Source: Lysinibacillus xylanilyticus | GTDB taxonomy: Bacteria; Bacillota; Bacilli; Bacillales_A; Planococcaceae | DNA: 64,000 bases | Assembly (NCBI RefSeq): GCF_001708185.1 | Contig: NZ_MDDN01000002.1 | Coordinates: 248,001 to 312,000, forward strand | Reading direction: 5' to 3' | Shown: one piece after another, positions 2,939 through 41,882 of the stretch | Position numbering within the stretch: the first letter of the stretch is position 1 | Layout: every line of letters starts with the position of its first letter | The notes under the pieces: model-generated | Told to the model about the DNA's origin: nothing | Seen by the model: only the letters and a program-made list of their open reading frames with translations | Database searches by the model: none | Made by a program: the position numbers and the translations under genes

Positions 2939-3033
2939 TAATTAAATGTCTCCTTTTATAGGTTCTACATTAAATGTTAGAGGGGGCACAAAAGTTGTAG
3001 ACCCCTTTTCACAACGCTCCTATTGTAACATAG

Positions 3034-3076
3034 AAAAAGTAGCTGTCTCCAAAGTCAATGGAGACAGCTACTTCTA
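3034..3076 (-). terminator. Strong hairpin, terminator downstream of tcdA
   Basis: GTAGCTGTCTCC pairs perfectly with GGAGACAGCTAC around an 11-base loop. Read on the minus strand it ends in a run of T (CTACTTTTTC). It lies about 170 bases beyond the tcdA stop, with the 21-bp-spaced repeats in between. Confidence 0.75.
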
Positions 3077-3083
3077 TAAACAG

Positions 3084-3120
3084 ATATTTTTTGTGCGAAA
3101 GCAAAGCGACAGCAATCGAA
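3084..3120 (+). repeat. Dispersed repeat copy (GTGCGAAAGC...GCGACAGCAA)
   Basis: TTTTTTGTGCGAAAGC is followed by AAAGCGACAGCAATCG. This is the same core as the unit of the tandem array at 60989-61667, minus its central insert. Related copies are near 31876, 32075 and 61672. Confidence 0.6.
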
Positions 3121-3168
3121 TTTTCTAGGATTTTTTCGCTTTTTAATTTTATCAAGAAATTATTTGAG

Positions 3169-3231
3169 TCTATCGATAAAAATATTGAATTTATCGCCTA
3201 ACTTTTTATATTTATCGACATAACAGATTTT
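3169..3231. repeat. Three 21-bp-spaced repeat units
   Basis: The word TATCG recurs at 3171, 3192 and 3213, exactly 21 bases apart, within diverged AT-rich units. The spacing matches the arrays at 17139, 31894, 32141, 43921 and 58320. It lies between the tcdA stop and its likely terminator. Confidence 0.5.
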
Positions 3232-3242
3232 TTAAAGTTACT

Positions 3243-4004
3243 TTAACCTTGAACACGTGTAATTTTTACATCTTTTAAAATTGTATTCACTACCCAGCTT
3301 GCAGCAATTAAGCCTGCCACTGAAGGAACAAAAGCGTTAGAAGATGGAGGCATTTTCGCTTTGCGGATGGCTGCATCTGGTTTCCCAACATGCTCAACTA
3401 CATCTGGACGAACGACAATGGGGCTCTCATCTGAGAATACAACCGTTACGCCTTTATGAATACCATCTTTACGTAGTTTCGTACGAATTACTTTTGCTAA
3501 TGGATCTGTATGTGTTTTTGATATATCGGCAATTTTAAAACGAGTAGGATCCATTTTATTTGCTGCACCCATACTAGATATGATTGGAATATTACGCTTT
3601 AGACATTCCTTCATAAGATGAATTTTATACATCACTGTATCACTCGCATCAATGACATAATCTATGCCTTGCGAGAAAAATTCCTCATATGTCTCCTCCG
3701 TATAAAACATATGCATATCAATAACTTCACATTCTGGATTAATATCAGCAATACGCTCTTTCATGACACCTGACTTTGATTTACCGACCGTTGAAAGATA
3801 GGCAACTAATTGACGATTTACATTGGTAATATCTACATTATCCTTATCAACCAAAATAATGCGGCCAATACCACTTCGTGCACATGCCTCTGCAGCAAAT
3901 GAACCTACACCGCCTACACCGAGAATGGCTACCGTTGTATTTTTTAATTTTTCGAGTCCCTCTGTTCCTATTGCGAGCTCGTTACGTGAAAATTGATGTA
4001 ACAT
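3243..4004 (-). CDS. tcdA: tRNA threonylcarbamoyladenosine dehydratase TcdA
   Basis: An E1-like ATP-dependent dehydratase that converts t6A37 of ANN-decoding tRNAs to the cyclic form ct6A. The 253-residue length fits the family. The ThiF/MoeB-like adenylating fold is clear: the nucleotide-binding GVGGVGSFAAEA motif lies near residues 31-42, followed by the VDKDNVDITNVNRQ motif and the D-A-S-D-T segment. The N-terminal HQFSRNELAIG is typical of the YrvM/CsdL group. In Bacillus tcdA follows aspS and 6S RNA closely. Here about 13 kb of other genes separate them. The ATG at 4004 is preceded by GGAGAGTG. A terminator lies at 3034-3076. Confidence 0.93.
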   Translation of the reverse strand: MLHQFSRNELAIGTEGLEKLKNTTVAILGVGGVGSFAAEACARSGIGRIILVDKDNVDITNVNRQLVAYLSTVGKSKSGVMKERIADINPECEVIDMHMFYTEETYEEFFSQGIDYVIDASDTVMYKIHLMKECLKRNIPIISSMGAANKMDPTRFKIADISKTHTDPLAKVIRTKLRKDGIHKGVTVVFSDESPIVVRPDVVEHVGKPDAAIRKAKMPPSSNAFVPSVAGLIAASWVVNTILKDVKITRVQG

Positions 4005-35410: not shown

Positions 35411-35442
35411 AAAAAAAGCCTACTCCATTAAAGAGTAGACTT
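35411..35442 (-). terminator. Terminator of the trp operon
   Basis: AGTCTACTC pairs with GAGTAGGCT around a seven-base loop and is followed by seven T on the minus strand. The stem starts inside the last codons of trpA. Confidence 0.85.
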
Positions 35443-36219
35443 CTCAAGGTCACCTTTTGAAGCGGACACTAATGCCTCCACCTTCGTTAAATTACCTTCA
35501 TGTAAAGCTGTTACAATCGCGCTGCCAACGATGACACCATCACCAAGCGCCCCCATGCTTACCACCTGCTCAGGAGTCGATATTCCAAAGCCTGCAAGCA
35601 CAGGTATATGACTAACTTCACGCAAGTGTGCAAAATGCCCCTTTAAATCATGAGCAAAGTTTGTGCGAGCCCCTGTAATTCCGTTTACTGTCACAGCATA
35701 GACAAAGCCTTGACTAGCAGCGGCAATACGTGCAATTCGTTCTGGAGGACTTGTTAACGATACAAGCTGGACAATATCGATACCATAAGGATTTAATGTT
35801 TCACGTAAAATGGTACTTTCCTCTAGTGGTACATCAGGGACGATTAACCCTTTGACGCCCCCCGCTACACAGGCTTCAGCAAATGCCTCTAACCCATACG
35901 CTAAAACAGGATTAAAATAAGTCATAACAACTAATGGAACATGAATTTCTTCTTTAAATGAAGCAAGTGTTTCGAAAACTTTACGTAAAGTTACGCCAGC
36001 CGCTAAAGCTCGTTCTCCTGCCTGCTCTATTGTCGGACCGTCCGCAACAGGATCAGTGAATGGAATACCCACTTCGATCGCCGTTACATCCATTTGCTGC
36101 AGCTGCAGGATCGTTGGCTTCAAAGTCTCCAGCCCCCCATCACCTGCCATAATGTATGGTATAAATGCTTTATTACCAGTGACTGTCGTTTGTTCGATTG
36201 CTTGCTGTAATGTTGCCAT
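35428..36219 (-). CDS. trpA: Tryptophan synthase alpha chain
   Basis: Cleaves indole-3-glycerol phosphate to indole and glyceraldehyde 3-phosphate, 263 residues. The catalytic acids are in AIEVGIPFTDPVADGPTIEQA (the Glu of AIEVG and the Asp of TDPVADG). The phosphate-binding loops VTVNGITGART and LAGFGISTPEQV are also present. Last gene of trpEDCFBA, overlapping the trpB stop by one base. Confidence 0.97.
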   Translation of the reverse strand: MATLQQAIEQTTVTGNKAFIPYIMAGDGGLETLKPTILQLQQMDVTAIEVGIPFTDPVADGPTIEQAGERALAAGVTLRKVFETLASFKEEIHVPLVVMTYFNPVLAYGLEAFAEACVAGGVKGLIVPDVPLEESTILRETLNPYGIDIVQLVSLTSPPERIARIAAASQGFVYAVTVNGITGARTNFAHDLKGHFAHLREVSHIPVLAGFGISTPEQVVSMGALGDGVIVGSAIVTALHEGNLTKVEALVSASKGDLEKSTL

Positions 36220-37427
36220 TATCTATCTCCTCCTAACGCTTTACGGACAGTATGAACATCCTTATCTCCTCGGCCTGATAAACATACAACAATGATGTCA
36301 TCTGTAGACATTGTTTTTGCGAGTTTTGCTGTATAGGCAATAGCATGAGAACTTTCTAGCGCCGGTAGTATACCTTCTGTTCTACTTAGTAACTGCAAGC
36401 CCTCAAGCGCTTCACTATCTGTAATTGACTGAAATTTAGCACGCCCAATATCATGTAAATAACAATGCTCAGGACCCTTCCCCGGATAATCTAGTCCTGC
36501 TGAAATAGAATGTGCCTCCTGCACAAAGCCATTTTCATCTTGTAATAAATACATGTATGCACCGTGTAAAACTCCTAGCTGTCCACCAGCAATTGCCGCT
36601 GCATGCTTCCCTGTCTCAATGCCACTTCCCGCAGCCTCTACTCCATATAGCGCCACAGTCTCATCGTCGACAAAAGGATGAAACATACCGATTGCATTAC
36701 TGCCACCACCTATACAGGCTACGACTGCATCTGGTAAACGTCCTTCCTTTTCTAAAATTTGCTTTCTAGTTTCTTCACCAATTACACGCTGGAAATCCCT
36801 TACGATTTTTGGGAACGGATGGGGACCTAACGCTGATCCCAAAATATAATGAGTGTCCTCAACATTTGTTACCCAGTAGCGAAGAGCTGCATTGACTGCA
36901 TCCTTCAATGTTTTTGATCCTGTTTCTACAGACTCCACTTTTGTTCCAAGCAATTCCATGCGAAACACATTTAACTGCTGGCGCTCTATATCCTCGGCCC
37001 CCATAAAGACGACACATTCAAGATTTAGTAATGCACAAGCAGTAGCCGTTGCTACCCCGTGTTGCCCTGCACCTGTTTCAGCCACAATTTTCTTTTTACC
37101 CATTCGTTTTGCAAGAAGCGCTTGACCAATCGCATTATTTATCTTATGGGCTCCAGTGTGATTTAAATCTTCACGCTTTAAATAAATCTTTGCTCCGTCA
37201 AGCTCTTTTGTTAAATTTTCAGCGTAGTACAATGGTGTTTCACGACCAACGTATTGTTGTAAATAATAGGTAAGCTCATCTGTGAATAATGGATCTTTCA
37301 TTGCCTCATCATAAGCTGTCTCTAGTCCTAACAAAGCTGTCATTAATGTTTCTGGAACATATTGTCCACCAAATTTTCCGTAACGACCTTCCTTCGAAGG
37401 AACACTATTTGCAATTGAATTCCCCAT
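36219..37427 (-). CDS. trpB: Tryptophan synthase beta chain
   Basis: The PLP enzyme that joins indole and serine, 402 residues. The PLP lysine lies in [11 protein letters not shown] near residue 92, the substrate loop in [12 protein letters not shown], and the phosphate-binding [12 protein letters not shown] near residue 235. The sequence begins with [14 protein letters not shown] as expected. It overlaps trpF and trpA by one base on either side (TAATG junctions), so the genes are translationally coupled. Confidence 0.98.
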
Positions 37428-38041
37428 TATGCTCTTCCCTTCTTGACTGCGTGAATAAATGCATTAATTTTTGTTAAATCTTTTACACCGTCTGTCTCCA
37501 CACCACTCGAAACATCTACCATATATGGCGACACAAGTGACACTGCCTCTTCAATATTCTCAACCTTTAAACCACCAGCTAACATTAACTTATCTTGCGG
37601 AATCCCTACCAATTCAAGAAGGTTCCAATCAAACGTATGACCACTACCTCCTTTAAAATCCGTCCCTGGAGCATCGAATAAGTAATAGTCCACATCATAA
37701 TTAGCAGCTACCTGAACATCTTCAGCACAACGTACGGACAATGCTTTGATTGCTGGATAGCCTTGTTCATGAATAAAATCTGGTGTTTCCTCCCCGTGAT
37801 ATTGCACGTAATCTAAAGGGACGCTCTCCACTGCAGTTCTTAATTCTTGTGCGCTTGGATTGACAAAAACACCGATTTTTAAAATCCCTGCTGGCACATG
37901 TTTTGCTAATTGCTGAGCTTGTTCAATTGTCACTTGACGCTTACTAGGAGCAAAGACAAAACCAATTGCATCCGCTCCTGCCTTTATAGCTGCTTGCACA
38001 TGGTGTTGTTCCTGCAGTCCACAAATCTTTACCTTTGTCAT
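37427..38041 (-). CDS. trpF: Phosphoribosylanthranilate isomerase
   Basis: An Amadori-rearrangement enzyme of the tryptophan pathway, 204 residues, a TIM barrel. [14 protein letters not shown] holds the catalytic Cys7. [14 protein letters not shown] and the phosphate-binding [13 protein letters not shown] and DVSSGVE complete the set, with the catalytic Asp in YLFDAPG. It overlaps trpC by four bases (ATGA). Confidence 0.97.
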
Positions 38042-38829
38042 ACAGTTGCTCCCACCTTATTTACCTGTAAACTTTGTAAAGCAGCTCCAACATCACCACT
38101 ACGCATTAATGCTTCACCGACAAGTACACCACTAGCTCCCATAGATGCCACTGCTTTCGCATCTTCTTGTGTCCAAATACCGCTTTCACTGATTAATACC
38201 CGCTCCTCTTTGAACGGGAAAGCCTCAGCAATTTCACGAGTCCGTTCTAAGCTCACCTCAAAAGTGCGTAAATCTCGGTTATTGACGCCAATTAGCTTAG
38301 CTCCTACTGCAATAGCACGTTCAAGCTCCTCAAGGTCATGCACTTCAACTAACACCTCTAAATCCAAGCTTTTTGCATAGCTATACAAGTCACGTAATGC
38401 CTCATCTGTTAACGCAGCTACAATTAATAAAATAATAGATGCACCTGATGCCTTAGCAAATCGAATTTGCACACGATCAATTATAAAATCCTTACAAAGA
38501 AGTGGCGTTTGAACTGCATTCGCAACTGCTTCCAAATCATCAAAGGAGCCTTTAAAAAACTTTTTATCTGTTAAAATAGAAATTGCCGCTGCCCCTGCTT
38601 GTGCATAAATTTTTGCTTGTGCAACTGGATCTGCTCCTTCTGCAATTAGCCCCTTTGAAGGTGAAGCACGTTTCATTTCTGAAATAACCTGCAATGTTTC
38701 AGCTTTTCGCAATAGCTCAAATAGTAATGGACGCGGTTTTTCTATAAAATTTGCTAATGGATCGGGCTGTTCAAGTAAAGCACTAACTTCGATTTTTTTT
38801 TGTTTGAGAATTTTATTTAAAATATTCAT
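38038..38829 (-). CDS. trpC: Indole-3-glycerol phosphate synthase
   Basis: Closes the indole ring from CdRP, 263 residues. The family motifs are ISEMKRASPSKG near residue 50, LTDKKFFKGSFDDL, LLCKDFIIDRVQI with the catalytic lysine, GVNNRDLRTFEV, and ISESGIWTQEDA. It overlaps trpD by four bases and trpF by four bases. Confidence 0.97.
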   Translation of the reverse strand: MNILNKILKQKKIEVSALLEQPDPLANFIEKPRPLLFELLRKAETLQVISEMKRASPSKGLIAEGADPVAQAKIYAQAGAAAISILTDKKFFKGSFDDLEAVANAVQTPLLCKDFIIDRVQIRFAKASGASIILLIVAALTDEALRDLYSYAKSLDLEVLVEVHDLEELERAIAVGAKLIGVNNRDLRTFEVSLERTREIAEAFPFKEERVLISESGIWTQEDAKAVASMGASGVLVGEALMRSGDVGAALQSLQVNKVGATV

Positions 38830-39857
38830 TGTTGGACCTCCACTTCTTTAATGTTCTCACTATAAGCAACGACTGCCTCTAATTTTCGGCGTGCACGCCC
38901 GCTAAAAATACTATCCTTCGCCATTTCTACACCCTCTTTAACAGTTTCAGCAACACCATAGCTGAACAGCCCTATACCAACATTCAACAAAACTGTATCA
39001 AAGTAAGCACTTTGTTCTCCGGCTAATAATTTACGCATAATAGCAGCATTTTCATCTGCATTGCCTCCTCGAATAGCCTCTAACGGTGCATAACTAAGAC
39101 CTGCATCCTCTGCGGTTAATGAAAATGGAATTAAGTCTCCCTTATCTACTAAGACAAACGTATTTTGACCTGCTAATGACGCCTCATCTAAACCTTGAGG
39201 CCCTGAAACGACCATTGCACGTTTCCGCCCAAGCATTTGTAAGACGGAGGCATATTCCATGACAAAATTAGGACGATTAATGCCCGTAAATTGTGTTGAT
39301 AAAGGCACTGGATTTGTAAGTGGACCGACGAGATTAAAGATAGTTGGCTTGCCTAGTGCTCGACGAACCTCTCCAATTCTCTTTAATTTCGGATGCACAT
39401 TTGGAGCATATAAAAAAGCAATCCCTTCTTTCTCTAACAGATCAACAGTTTGTTCAATGGCAATATTCGTATGAATCCCAAGTGCTTCTAAAACATCCGC
39501 GCTTCCCGATGCTGAAGAAATTTTACGATTTCCGTGCTTCGCCATTTTGACACCAGCCCCGGCTAGTACAAAGGCGGAAGCAGTGCTAATATTAAATGTA
39601 TTGAGCCCATCGCCACCAGTACCGCAATTATCCATATATACGCCCGCTTTTGCTGGTACATCTAGTGCAAACGAACGCATAATAGTTGCTAATGCCGCTA
39701 CTTCATGTGCAGTCTCACCTTTCACTGATATTGCCGTTAAAAAGCTTGCGATTTCTTCCTTTGGTGTATCATCATGGAAGATCCATTTTGCTGCCTGTAG
39801 CATTTCCTCATACATTAAATGCTCTCGCTGTTGTACTTTTTGACGAATATCTTCCAT
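38826..39857 (-). CDS. trpD: Anthranilate phosphoribosyltransferase
   Basis: Transfers the phosphoribosyl group to anthranilate, 343 residues. The PRPP site DNCGTGGDGLNTFNIST lies near residue 80, followed by KHGNRKISSASGSADVLEALG and the GPLTNP loop. It starts two bases after the trpE stop. A complete trpD supports the idea that anthranilate is made or taken up by this organism, although the operon's TrpE looks inactive. Confidence 0.97.
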   Translation of the reverse strand: MEDIRQKVQQREHLMYEEMLQAAKWIFHDDTPKEEIASFLTAISVKGETAHEVAALATIMRSFALDVPAKAGVYMDNCGTGGDGLNTFNISTASAFVLAGAGVKMAKHGNRKISSASGSADVLEALGIHTNIAIEQTVDLLEKEGIAFLYAPNVHPKLKRIGEVRRALGKPTIFNLVGPLTNPVPLSTQFTGINRPNFVMEYASVLQMLGRKRAMVVSGPQGLDEASLAGQNTFVLVDKGDLIPFSLTAEDAGLSYAPLEAIRGGNADENAAIMRKLLAGEQSAYFDTVLLNVGIGLFSYGVAETVKEGVEMAKDSIFSGRARRKLEAVVAYSENIKEVEVQQ

Positions 39858-39859
39858 TA

Positions 39860-41206
39860 CTAGTGACCTCCTGCTTTTTCAACTAATTGTAAAAACCCCT
39901 GTTCGTCCTCTTCTACTTGTTTTAAAACTTCCTTAACATTTGTGTATTTGGTTACCATTACAGCTGACTGCATATGCATCGTTTCATTTTCAAAGACAAT
40001 GGATTTCCCTAGTAAAGCAAAATCAAGATGACCGTTAAAACCAATAAATCCGATAGCTCCTCTTAATATCTCAACGGTTTGACGATATTTCTTTGGAAGC
40101 CCTGTTGATGGTAAGGATGGTAACGTCGCAGCTAATACATCCAAAGCATGAAGCATCGGTAAAATTTGACCCTCGACTCTCGATGTCATGTGTAATGAAT
40201 GCTTTGAACGCTCAATTCTCATCTCCTCAATGACTTGAATGGAATCTCGGAAGCACACGGACTGAAGCTCCTGTTGAACAGCAGATACAAGTACAGCATG
40301 TGACTTCCTAATATCTGTGTTGTTATATAGCTTTCGTTCATTTTCCAAATCTTCACTTTTTACGGAACCTCTAGGAAATGACCCCTCTGTTGGTGTTGCA
40401 ATTACACGCTCATCTTGTACTCGAATTAGACTTTCGGGAGATGTTCCCAAAACAATATGATCCTCAAATTCTACATAATACATATAGGGAGCAGGATGTT
40501 TTTTACGCAATTGACGATATAAAGTGAAAGCATCCCCTTGTAAATTCGCTAACAAACGCTGTGACAGTACGACCCTTGTAATATCTTTATCCAAGGAAGC
40601 TTTGATAGATGTAAGGGTTGTCGCAAATTGTTCATTCGTTGTCGTTTCGAGCGGCTGATAACTACATGTTTTATCCTCATCCTCTCTGCCCTTTAACAGT
40701 TGCTCAGCCAGCTCCTCTAAATTTGGTTCTTTCTTTTCTGCATCAATATTCGTATGAATTAATGTAACTTCGTCTGTTATATGATCAAACACAATGACTG
40801 TCTCATACACATGGAAGTGCACTTCTGGTAACTGCACTTTATCCTGCGCAGTAGTTAATACCGACGTTGCCCTCTTACCAACAAAGCCTACAGCTCCACC
40901 GGAAAACGGGAATTGTGTCGTATTGGAGATACGTGGCATTAATCTCTTCAGTAAGACGAAAAGGTCGCCTTTATGCGTATACGTTTTTCCAGTCTTATAT
41001 GAATATTCCTGAATCTCATCTCCAAAGCCTATATATGTTTTTCTTGGATTTGCACCGATAAAAGAAAAGCGTCCTGCTCCCTCATGCTGTGCCGAACTCT
41101 CTAGCAAAAATTTGTAATTGCCTTGTAAGCGTCTAAAAATTAAAATCGGCGTTAAAGAATCAGCATTAATGGTTTTCATTGTTGTTCTTGAACTCGTCGA
41201 TAACAT
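39860..41206 (-). CDS. trpE: TrpE-like chorismate-binding protein with degenerate active site
   Basis: It occupies the place of anthranilate synthase component I, 448 residues against about 515 in B. subtilis. The N-terminal part keeps the tryptophan-site motif (FLLESS near residue 35) and RFSFIGANP. In the chorismate domain, compared by eye with B. subtilis TrpE, the key motifs are altered: IAGTRKRG reads TEGSFPRG, ERAEHVMLVDLGRND reads IRKSHAVLVSAVQQE, PAGTVSGAPK reads PSLPSTGLPK, AIRT reads LGKS, and AGAGIVADSVPE reads SAVMVTKYTNVK. Both magnesium glutamates are lost. Only the SHVMH histidine region (KHSLH) persists. ATG 41206 follows AAGGAG. No trpG is in the operon. It may be a sensor or a strongly diverged enzyme. 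Confidence 0.8.
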   Translation of the reverse strand: MLSTSSRTTMKTINADSLTPILIFRRLQGNYKFLLESSAQHEGAGRFSFIGANPRKTYIGFGDEIQEYSYKTGKTYTHKGDLFVLLKRLMPRISNTTQFPFSGGAVGFVGKRATSVLTTAQDKVQLPEVHFHVYETVIVFDHITDEVTLIHTNIDAEKKEPNLEELAEQLLKGREDEDKTCSYQPLETTTNEQFATTLTSIKASLDKDITRVVLSQRLLANLQGDAFTLYRQLRKKHPAPYMYYVEFEDHIVLGTSPESLIRVQDERVIATPTEGSFPRGSVKSEDLENERKLYNNTDIRKSHAVLVSAVQQELQSVCFRDSIQVIEEMRIERSKHSLHMTSRVEGQILPMLHALDVLAATLPSLPSTGLPKKYRQTVEILRGAIGFIGFNGHLDFALLGKSIVFENETMHMQSAVMVTKYTNVKEVLKQVEEDEQGFLQLVEKAGGH

Positions 41207-41452: not shown

Positions 41453-41497
41453 AAAAAAAGTCCTCTGCAAAAAGGATTTTTCCTAATTGCAGAGGAC
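41453..41497 (-). terminator. T-box attenuator terminator of the trp operon
   Basis: GTCCTCTGCAA pairs perfectly with TTGCAGAGGAC around a 16-base region with an inner stem. On the minus strand it is followed by seven T. Confidence 0.88.
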
Positions 41498-41882
41498 GAT
41501 CATGACCGCGTTGCCACCTCATATTAGAGCATATTTGCTCTCCCTTATGTACTCAACCTTAGTTCGCCAGTTAAATTGACGTATCTTTTGGGTTAATGGC
41601 AAAAGATTTATCTAAGTGGAAGCACCTCCCTATAACGTGGGGAATCCGTTCGCTATCATCAATTTCGCCTTAGCGTAATTGCATCCTGATTAAGCGACTC
41701 TCATAAGTCCATTCACATAAGCTACAAATCAGTTTGCACCATCCACTGACTCTCTAAATTGCACACTTATGCTACTACTCTTATTCAACAATTTCTCAGC
41801 TATTCTCATCTAAACTCAGCTCATCTGTTCTAAGGCTGATCTCGCTCCCGAGACCTCCTAGCCTGTACCGAACAAAAAGTTA
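41453..41882 (-). promoter_or_regulatory. Tryptophan T-box riboswitch
   Basis: The T-box AGGTGGCAACGCGG (41506-41519, minus) precedes the terminator. Stem I carries GTGAATGGACTTATGAGAG, in which TGG (41709-41711, minus) is the specifier, followed by the usual purine. It therefore senses uncharged tRNA-Trp and controls trpEDCFBA. The 230 bases between the terminator and trpE (41222-41452) hold no obvious feature. Confidence 0.92.

Follow-up and report, generated by a model that had tools for sequence, protein, structure and literature searches.

What does the first gene of a trp operon do when its product has apparently lost the means of making anthranilate? The question is raised by a 64,000-nucleotide stretch of Lysinibacillus xylanilyticus DNA (NCBI RefSeq assembly GCF_001708185.1, contig NZ_MDDN01000002.1, positions 248,001 to 312,000 of the forward strand), hereafter the window, in which the trpE slot is occupied by a gene here called trpE1*. 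A first-pass annotation had proposed that its product, TrpE1*, lacks catalytic residues, and that either a second enzyme makes anthranilate and this protein is a tryptophan-binding regulator, or chorismate is handled in a new way. The observation as a whole proved real: the losses were confirmed, the protein is present in 32/32 congeneric genomes, and the ratio of nonsynonymous to synonymous substitution rates (dN/dS) is 0.14. The first of these readings fits the tests: an intact TrpE2-TrpG pair was found and the tryptophan pocket is kept; tryptophan binding, regulation and a partner are what we infer beyond this. It is fairly probable that TrpE1* is a catalytically dead, tryptophan-binding regulator of the pathway; in Lysinibacillus and four genera related to it, the old enzyme TrpE1 has probably turned into a sensor of tryptophan.

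Catalytic residues and the source of anthranilate

The reading frame of trpE1* is intact, as first annotated: on the minus strand it starts with an ATG at 41206, stays open across 448 codons to a last sense codon ending at 39863, and stops at 39862-39860. A Pfam scan detected both TrpE domains (Anth_synt_I_N, 92.3 bits; Chorismate_bind, 124.6 bits). Domain scan and predicted structure both indicate a chorismate-utilising fold with an Anth_synt_I_N domain; the fold match of the model cannot tell TrpE from PabB, and beyond about 400 residues a single domain may match weakly. The score against TIGR00564 (TrpE) is 266.9 bits, about half the curated cut-off of 517.7. The protein had also been called short, which does not hold: 448 aa is close to the local operon TrpEs (∼457 aa) and TrpE2 (∼461 aa), and shortness was rejected as a sign that the window protein is decaying.

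The survey covered 261 genomes from 19 genera of this family, labelled by number (g1, Lysinibacillus; g17, Sporosarcina). The degenerate proteins compared number 49, namely 31 from g1 (30 of the 32 genomes by locus, plus G017 through record L129, with G011 left out), 3/3 from g3, 3/3 from g8, 5/5 from g10 and 7/16 from g16, the remaining nine g16 genomes being known from search matches alone. The gene and its diagnostic positions are as follows.

39860..41206, minus strand: trpE1*, occupying the trpE position of the trp operon and predicted to encode a catalytically dead TrpE (448 aa plus stop codon)
40301..40303, minus strand: Ser302, replacing the Mg ligand E361, which is lost in 49/49
40004..40006, minus strand: Lys401, replacing the catalytic arginine R469, which is kept in 4/49
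39917..39919, minus strand: Gln430, replacing the Mg ligand E498, which is lost in 49/49

Catalytic positions are given in Serratia numbering and were read from an alignment with intact TrpEs; the numbers of E361, E498, T425 and R469 were counted from H398 and G485, and the residue map agrees with a hidden Markov model alignment to the solved Mycobacterium tuberculosis TrpE (5cwa). We take E361 and E498 to be Mg ligands, and T425 and R469 to be catalytic, from what is known of the family. G328, T329, H398 and G485 are described as chorismate-binding in Serratia TrpE (PMC10464499). At these eight sites the window protein keeps G328 and H398 and carries T329S, and none of the five residues by which an active TrpE was recognised survives (E361S, E498Q, T425P, R469K, G485M). 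Both Mg glutamates, the threonine of AGT, the arginine of IRT and the GRND motif are replaced, as originally stated, except that one glutamate had been assigned to an SVPE motif and is better described as the second E of a YEET motif. Of these changes, R469K and T329S are conservative; the losses of E361, E498, T425 and G485 weigh more. Across the 49 degenerate proteins, E361, G485 and E498 are never kept, T425 is kept in 3, R469 in 4 and T329 in 19; G328 (34/49) and H398 (31/49) persist in Lysinibacillus and g3 only. The alignments show that TrpE1* has lost catalytic residues.

The GRND motif, read as VQQE in the window, is a separate case. Its replacement stands, but its use as a sign of inactivity does not, because the named Sporosarcina operon TrpEs (L131-L140) read S-K-K/R-E at this site in 10/10 cases and all ten retain G328, T329, E361, H398, T425, R469 and G485. 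E498 is readable in four of the ten and kept in those four, the others being clipped at the match end. Loss of GRND was rejected as a mark of inactivity; the motif, though conserved, seems dispensable in these ten proteins.

The genome encodes four chorismate-binding proteins: TrpE1*, PabB, MenF and an intact TrpE2. PabB (L002) lies beside PabA- and PabC-like open reading frames (ORFs) and MenF is at L003, both as recognised by eye. The second trpE that the first-pass annotation had suggested looking for is present elsewhere in the genome, behind its own Trp T-box and directly followed by trpG (L001). This TrpE2 has all eight catalytic residues, as do 17/17 TrpE2s examined (ten from g1 and one each from g3, g6, g8, g10, g14, g16 and g19, with L223 left out). 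TrpE1* and TrpE2 were both detected in 32/32 genomes of the genus, so that, judged by sequence, an active enzyme for the same step accompanies the degenerate one. Anthranilate is very probably made by TrpE2-TrpG, elsewhere than the trp operon. As a side observation, the TrpE2 of genome G022 (L223, 2976-4360) is split in two frames (302 and 148 aa), owing either to a frameshift or to an error of assembly.

The allosteric tryptophan pocket and selection on trpE1*

Three segments of TrpE1* correspond to the allosteric tryptophan site of working TrpEs.

41060..41107, minus strand: pocket segment 1, LLES-X10-SF, residues 34-49, with E55, S56, R65, S67 and F68 in 49/49
40475..40489, minus strand: pocket segment 2, PYMYY, residues 240-244, with the equivalents of P291/M293 (Serratia) and Y284/M285 (M. 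tuberculosis)
40022..40051, minus strand: pocket segment 3, GFIGFNGHLD, residues 386-395, ending in the D453-equivalent, 49/49

In Serratia TrpE the allosteric tryptophan ligands are given as Ser40, Pro291, Met293, Val453 and Tyr455 (PMC10464499). The M. tuberculosis pocket is described as an LLESX10S motif, with Leu54, Glu55 and Ser56, together with Tyr284, Met285, Tyr445 and Asp453; docking there has Asp453 bonding the tryptophan amino group, and mutants of Ser67 and Phe68 are reported to lose feedback (PMC6437058). The LLESX10S motif, the PYM strand and the GY...D strand are all recognisable in TrpE1* with their ligands. Persistence of the LLES motif had been annotated correctly, and it extends across the set: E55, S56, R65, S67, F68 and D453 (M. 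tuberculosis numbering) are invariant in 49/49 degenerate proteins, Y284 is present in 48/49, M285 is M or L in 49/49, V453 is V, I or L, and Y445 is Y or F.

Family controls bear on whether these residues are merely structural. Two PabBs and one MenF keep 8, 8 and 6 of the 8 catalytic residues and have T or C for S67, E for D453 and no F68; L081, a fourth family member of unassigned type, keeps 6/8 and also misses S67, F68 and D453. Since PabB and MenF fold without these three residues, the fold does not require them. E55 and R65 weigh less as evidence, being retained in part by PabB and MenF, and the PabB alignment near the first motif is uncertain. The sequence comparison shows that the pocket is conserved in TrpE1* while the catalytic residues are gone.

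TrpE1* is no fresh pseudogene and is under purifying selection. The first-pass annotation had proposed checking other Lysinibacillus, and TrpE1* was found in all 32 congeneric genomes; the named related records (18, L113-L130) are Lysinibacillus. From 96 Lysinibacillus pairs with 0.15 < dS < 1.2, among 435 pairs of 30 sequences, dN/dS of trpE1* is 0.140 overall, with 0.064 in residues 1-110 and 0.140 in residues 261-380, and trpD of the same genomes has 0.064, the value of the TrpE1* N-terminal residues. Catalytic loss is thus combined with retention under purifying selection. In ten matched genomes, identity over residues 1-110 and 261-380 is 87% and 70% for TrpE1*, against 79% and 87% for TrpE2; the constraint is turned round between N-terminal domain and catalytic stretch.

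Across the 49 proteins from five genera, 75 positions are at least 94% invariant, 44 of them within residues 1-110. Six positions at this level of invariance are rare in 14 operon TrpEs with largely intact catalytic residues. They include R55 and T57 of a PRKTY motif just after the pocket, present in 49/49. The single g6 protein, which is only partly degenerate, already shows all six, so a new role may predate full catalytic loss.

Sister genera and the shrinking of TrpE1*

The operon context used to identify orthologues is given here; in order on the minus strand the genes, named by eye, are trpE1*, trpD, trpC, trpF, trpB and trpA.

38826..39857, minus strand: trpD, starting 2 nt 3' of the trpE1* stop, dN/dS 0.064
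35428..38829, minus strand: trpC, trpF, trpB and trpA, named by eye; used as references, they recover the same gene order in other loci

Shorter TrpE1* orthologues hold the same operon slot in g3 (341-383 aa), g8 (387-400 aa), g16 (326-333 aa) and g10 (257-277 aa), lengths being those after 5' trimming; in the 18 loci of these genera that were fetched, trpD always comes next. A search at order level with the g10 form took in the same 261 genomes. Of the 18 genomes of these four genera that were searched, 17 gave a full-length TrpE2-type match. The exception, G041 (g3, 90% complete, L195), has trpE1* and no TrpE2 match, which may be an assembly gap or a possible auxotroph.

The chorismate site has all but vanished from the g10 and g16 proteins. 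Besides the N-terminal domain, the shortest forms retain a [PA]Y[ML]YY strand, GYIGFNGxxDF and a short helix (model residues 354-361). Three of the four g10 proteins compared end within a few residues of the D453-equivalent, G068 having a short tail, and G066, the fifth, hardly differs from one of these three. As far as the alignments show, the pocket is what evolution keeps once the catalytic domain is deleted in the sister genera.

Other genera hold intermediate or different states. The g6 protein (one genome) is full-length, with T329I, H398Q, T425S, G485S and E498Q, and keeps E361 and R469. Two TrpEs occur in 2/4 g14 and 3/3 g19 genomes; the operon TrpE of G258 (g19) keeps the eight catalytic residues and that of G143 (g14) has lost T425 and G485. 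Sporosarcina has one TrpE per genome at the search threshold, except G212 (two partial matches). In one Sporosarcina genome (G224, C1:626373-627215; 83% complete, 9% contaminated) the operon TrpE match contains two stops and an open stretch of 286 aa. A TrpE is encoded immediately upstream of trpD in g11 and g9, and g12 (G085) has a single TrpE of operon type, located away from the operon. Among ten loci examined, no trpE-like ORF was found in the ∼1.5 kb upstream of trpD in the 7/7 loci of g7, g13 and g18. TrpE1 seems to have been lost in these three genera, g13 being mixed, as G126 keeps TrpE1.

A 73-sequence tree places TrpE1* in descent from the operon TrpE lineage. TrpE2 forms a separate clade (support 99), and g1, g3, g6, g8, g10 and g16 form one operon-TrpE clade (support 97) with g14 and g19 adjacent (node 100). 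Deep branching within the operon clade was not relied on, since it includes a long branch (1.43) leading to the Bacteroidota outgroups. The g6 protein nests with g8, g10 and g16 (support 100), inside the degenerate clade, which implies that completed catalytic loss and large deletions arose more than once.

Proposed role, alternatives and operon leader

In the proposed history, an ancestor would have had one TrpE encoded in the trp operon (TrpE1) and another next to TrpG (TrpE2). With anthranilate supplied by TrpE2-TrpG, TrpE1 would have lost catalysis, selection retaining it for the allosteric tryptophan site; the catalytic domain would have been largely deleted, in several separate steps, in sister lineages, leaving, at the extreme end, the N-terminal domain and the strands closing the tryptophan pocket. 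Free L-tryptophan would be bound by TrpE1* between the N-terminal domain and the PYMYY and GYIGFNGxxD strands. Binding would close the N-terminal domain on the pocket strands and change the shape of the protein, and a pathway enzyme in contact with TrpE1* would respond to this state, so that tryptophan would exert feedback in trans. The chances are about even that the ∼260-aa g10 protein is a minimal tryptophan-sensing module controlling a pathway protein in trans, produced by stepwise stripping in parallel in several genera and working alongside TRAP and T-box sensing.

As the putative partner, TrpD, encoded 2 nt downstream, is slightly favoured over TrpE2, the main alternative, and has an enteric precedent: enteric TrpD is described as tryptophan-sensitive only in complex with anthranilate synthase (PMC10464499). 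Inherited trpE-trpD gene order alone is no evidence for the partnership.

Other sensing at this operon may reside in its leader.

41489..41797, minus strand: T-box leader, tryptophan specifier UGG (read by eye from the alignment), 110.2 bits
41795..41822, minus strand: TRAP-like site of six (G/U)AG triplets with a 5-nt period, adjoining the T-box

The TRAP-like chain was reached in 0/500 and 0/200 shuffles, and a TRAP gene is present in 25/25 genomes searched. Sensing of tryptophan by TRAP and of charged tRNA by the T-box may be combined in this leader.

Several points weigh against a tryptophan-sensing regulator. The cells also have TRAP, in 25/25 genomes, and Trp T-boxes, so that the gain from a further sensor is not obvious. 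TrpE2 has its own tryptophan pocket, the same with or without TrpE1*, so TrpE1* is not needed for TrpE2 feedback. Among the pocket residues P291 is the least conserved, kept in only 27/49 and replaced by A or S in 22/49, and Y445 is F in 31/31 Lysinibacillus proteins. The ex-catalytic stretch of the Lysinibacillus form is still under selection (0.14), so TrpE1* may do more than bind tryptophan. The retained segments could serve folding, with tryptophan as a structural ligand. Finally, co-variation points only weakly to TrpD as partner: where trpE1 is absent, 5/176 conserved TrpD positions change against 2/212 in TrpC and TrpF together (Fisher p 0.25). Co-variation was rejected as proof of a TrpD complex, the difference from TrpC (1/123) and TrpF (1/89) not being significant.

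The alternative that survives best, though unlikely, is that TrpE1* serves TrpE2-TrpG, TrpD or the like as a structural or scaffolding subunit; its pocket strands would then serve folding, and tryptophan, if bound, would be a fixed structural ligand rather than a signal. The retained segments do include fold strands, and E. coli PabB is reported to hold a structural tryptophan. The absence of S67, F68 and D453 from PabB and MenF, which share the fold, speaks against it, within the uncertainty of the PabB alignment near the first motif.

Distinctly unlikely is a tryptophan sensor that acts on gene expression (trp mRNA, TRAP or T-box) instead of on an enzyme. It would suit the position of trpE1* as first gene of an operon whose leader has a TRAP-like site and a Trp T-box, and the derived R55 and T57, invariant in the 49 proteins, add a basic residue beside the pocket. 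However, the Pfam scan of TrpE1* gave no RNA-binding domain, TRAP already senses tryptophan, and PRKTY alone is thin evidence.

Very little credence is due to a decaying pseudogene, kept merely as a leader ORF so that translation runs into trpD. TrpE2 makes trpE1* redundant for catalysis, the gene ends 2 nt from trpD and the former catalytic domain is eroding, yet a leader ORF needs no conserved amino acids, and the amino-acid conservation therefore speaks against this reading: residues 1-110 match TrpD in dN/dS (0.064), the 75 near-invariant positions, 44 of them in residues 1-110, span five genera, and the pocket residues are invariant where the catalytic ones are gone. Moreover, 7/10 loci examined in other genera have no trpE-like ORF before trpD.

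Least credible is an enzyme with altered chemistry on chorismate or a relative: the 448-aa Lysinibacillus form does keep G328 (31/31) and H398 (28/31), with the former catalytic stretch under selection (0.14) and its fold predicted intact, but both Mg ligands are gone in 49/49, that stretch diverges faster than the N-terminal domain, and g10 and g16 proteins, which fill that operon slot too, are missing most of the chorismate domain and nearly the whole chorismate site, which makes the new chorismate chemistry of the first-pass annotation very unlikely.

Compared with TrpE itself (TIGR00564; PDB 5cwa, 1i7s, 1qdl), TrpE1* shares the fold, the N-terminal domain, the tryptophan pocket and the operon place; it differs in lacking, in the window, the Mg glutamates, T425 and G485, in lacking, in g10 and g16, most of the catalytic domain, and in its score (266.9 against 517.7). 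HisZ is a dead histidyl-tRNA synthetase paralogue. Described as the regulator of short-form ATP phosphoribosyltransferase HisG, it is non-catalytic, like TrpE1*, and mediates end-product feedback (PMC9734150, PMC10795190). HisZ arose from a tRNA synthetase and has a known partner, whereas TrpE1* derives from the pathway's own first enzyme, keeps its allosteric site and has a putative partner. The trypanosome AdoMetDC prozyme is likewise a dead paralogue kept beside an active enzyme; it is reported to activate that enzyme, and the account consulted describes no end-product pocket for it (PMC5201418). Dead paralogues that regulate enzymes are, on these accounts, already known. TRAP and anti-TRAP of Bacillus subtilis are tryptophan-responsive trp regulators, as proposed for TrpE1*, and the TRAP gene occurs in these genomes too. 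Their fold is unrelated to TrpE and their mechanism RNA-based, whereas TrpE1* is what remains of an enzyme. Searches of open-licence PubMed Central, judged by titles and abstract starts, brought up no anthranilate synthase reduced to a bare tryptophan site.

Allosteric sites are usually studied inside working enzymes. The series from Sporosarcina (catalytic residues) through g6 (partly degenerate) and Lysinibacillus (full-length, apparently dead) to g16 and g10 (little beyond the effector pocket) lets the question of whether such a site can outlive its enzyme and work alone be tested directly. It points to a suspected extra layer of tryptophan control on a textbook operon and to a candidate natural tryptophan-binding module. 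Genes of the trpE1* type may be labelled anthranilate synthase though anthranilate is very probably made elsewhere.

Minor observations concern the leaders and neighbouring genes. A chain of at least 5 TRAP-like repeats directly beside the Trp T-box occurs in 25/30 Lysinibacillus leaders, the other five having 1 to 3, and such chains also occur in 3/3 g8, 5/5 g10, g6 and one Sporosarcina. Short chains (4 repeats) near the trpE2 start codon in 2/7 TrpE2 leaders (L216 and L217) suggest translational control. A Bacillaceae-1 RNA match (RF01690, 45.6 bits; L001 3191-3259) overlaps the trpE2 T-box leader (2965-3504), apparently within a 329-nt insertion of the hairpin before the trpE2 antiterminator. 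A second TrpB-like gene (∼385 aa, 56-57% identical to TrpB) follows trpA in L196, L197 and L211, and in two g10 loci (L200, L201) trpC and trpF appear as one ORF of 457-458 aa.
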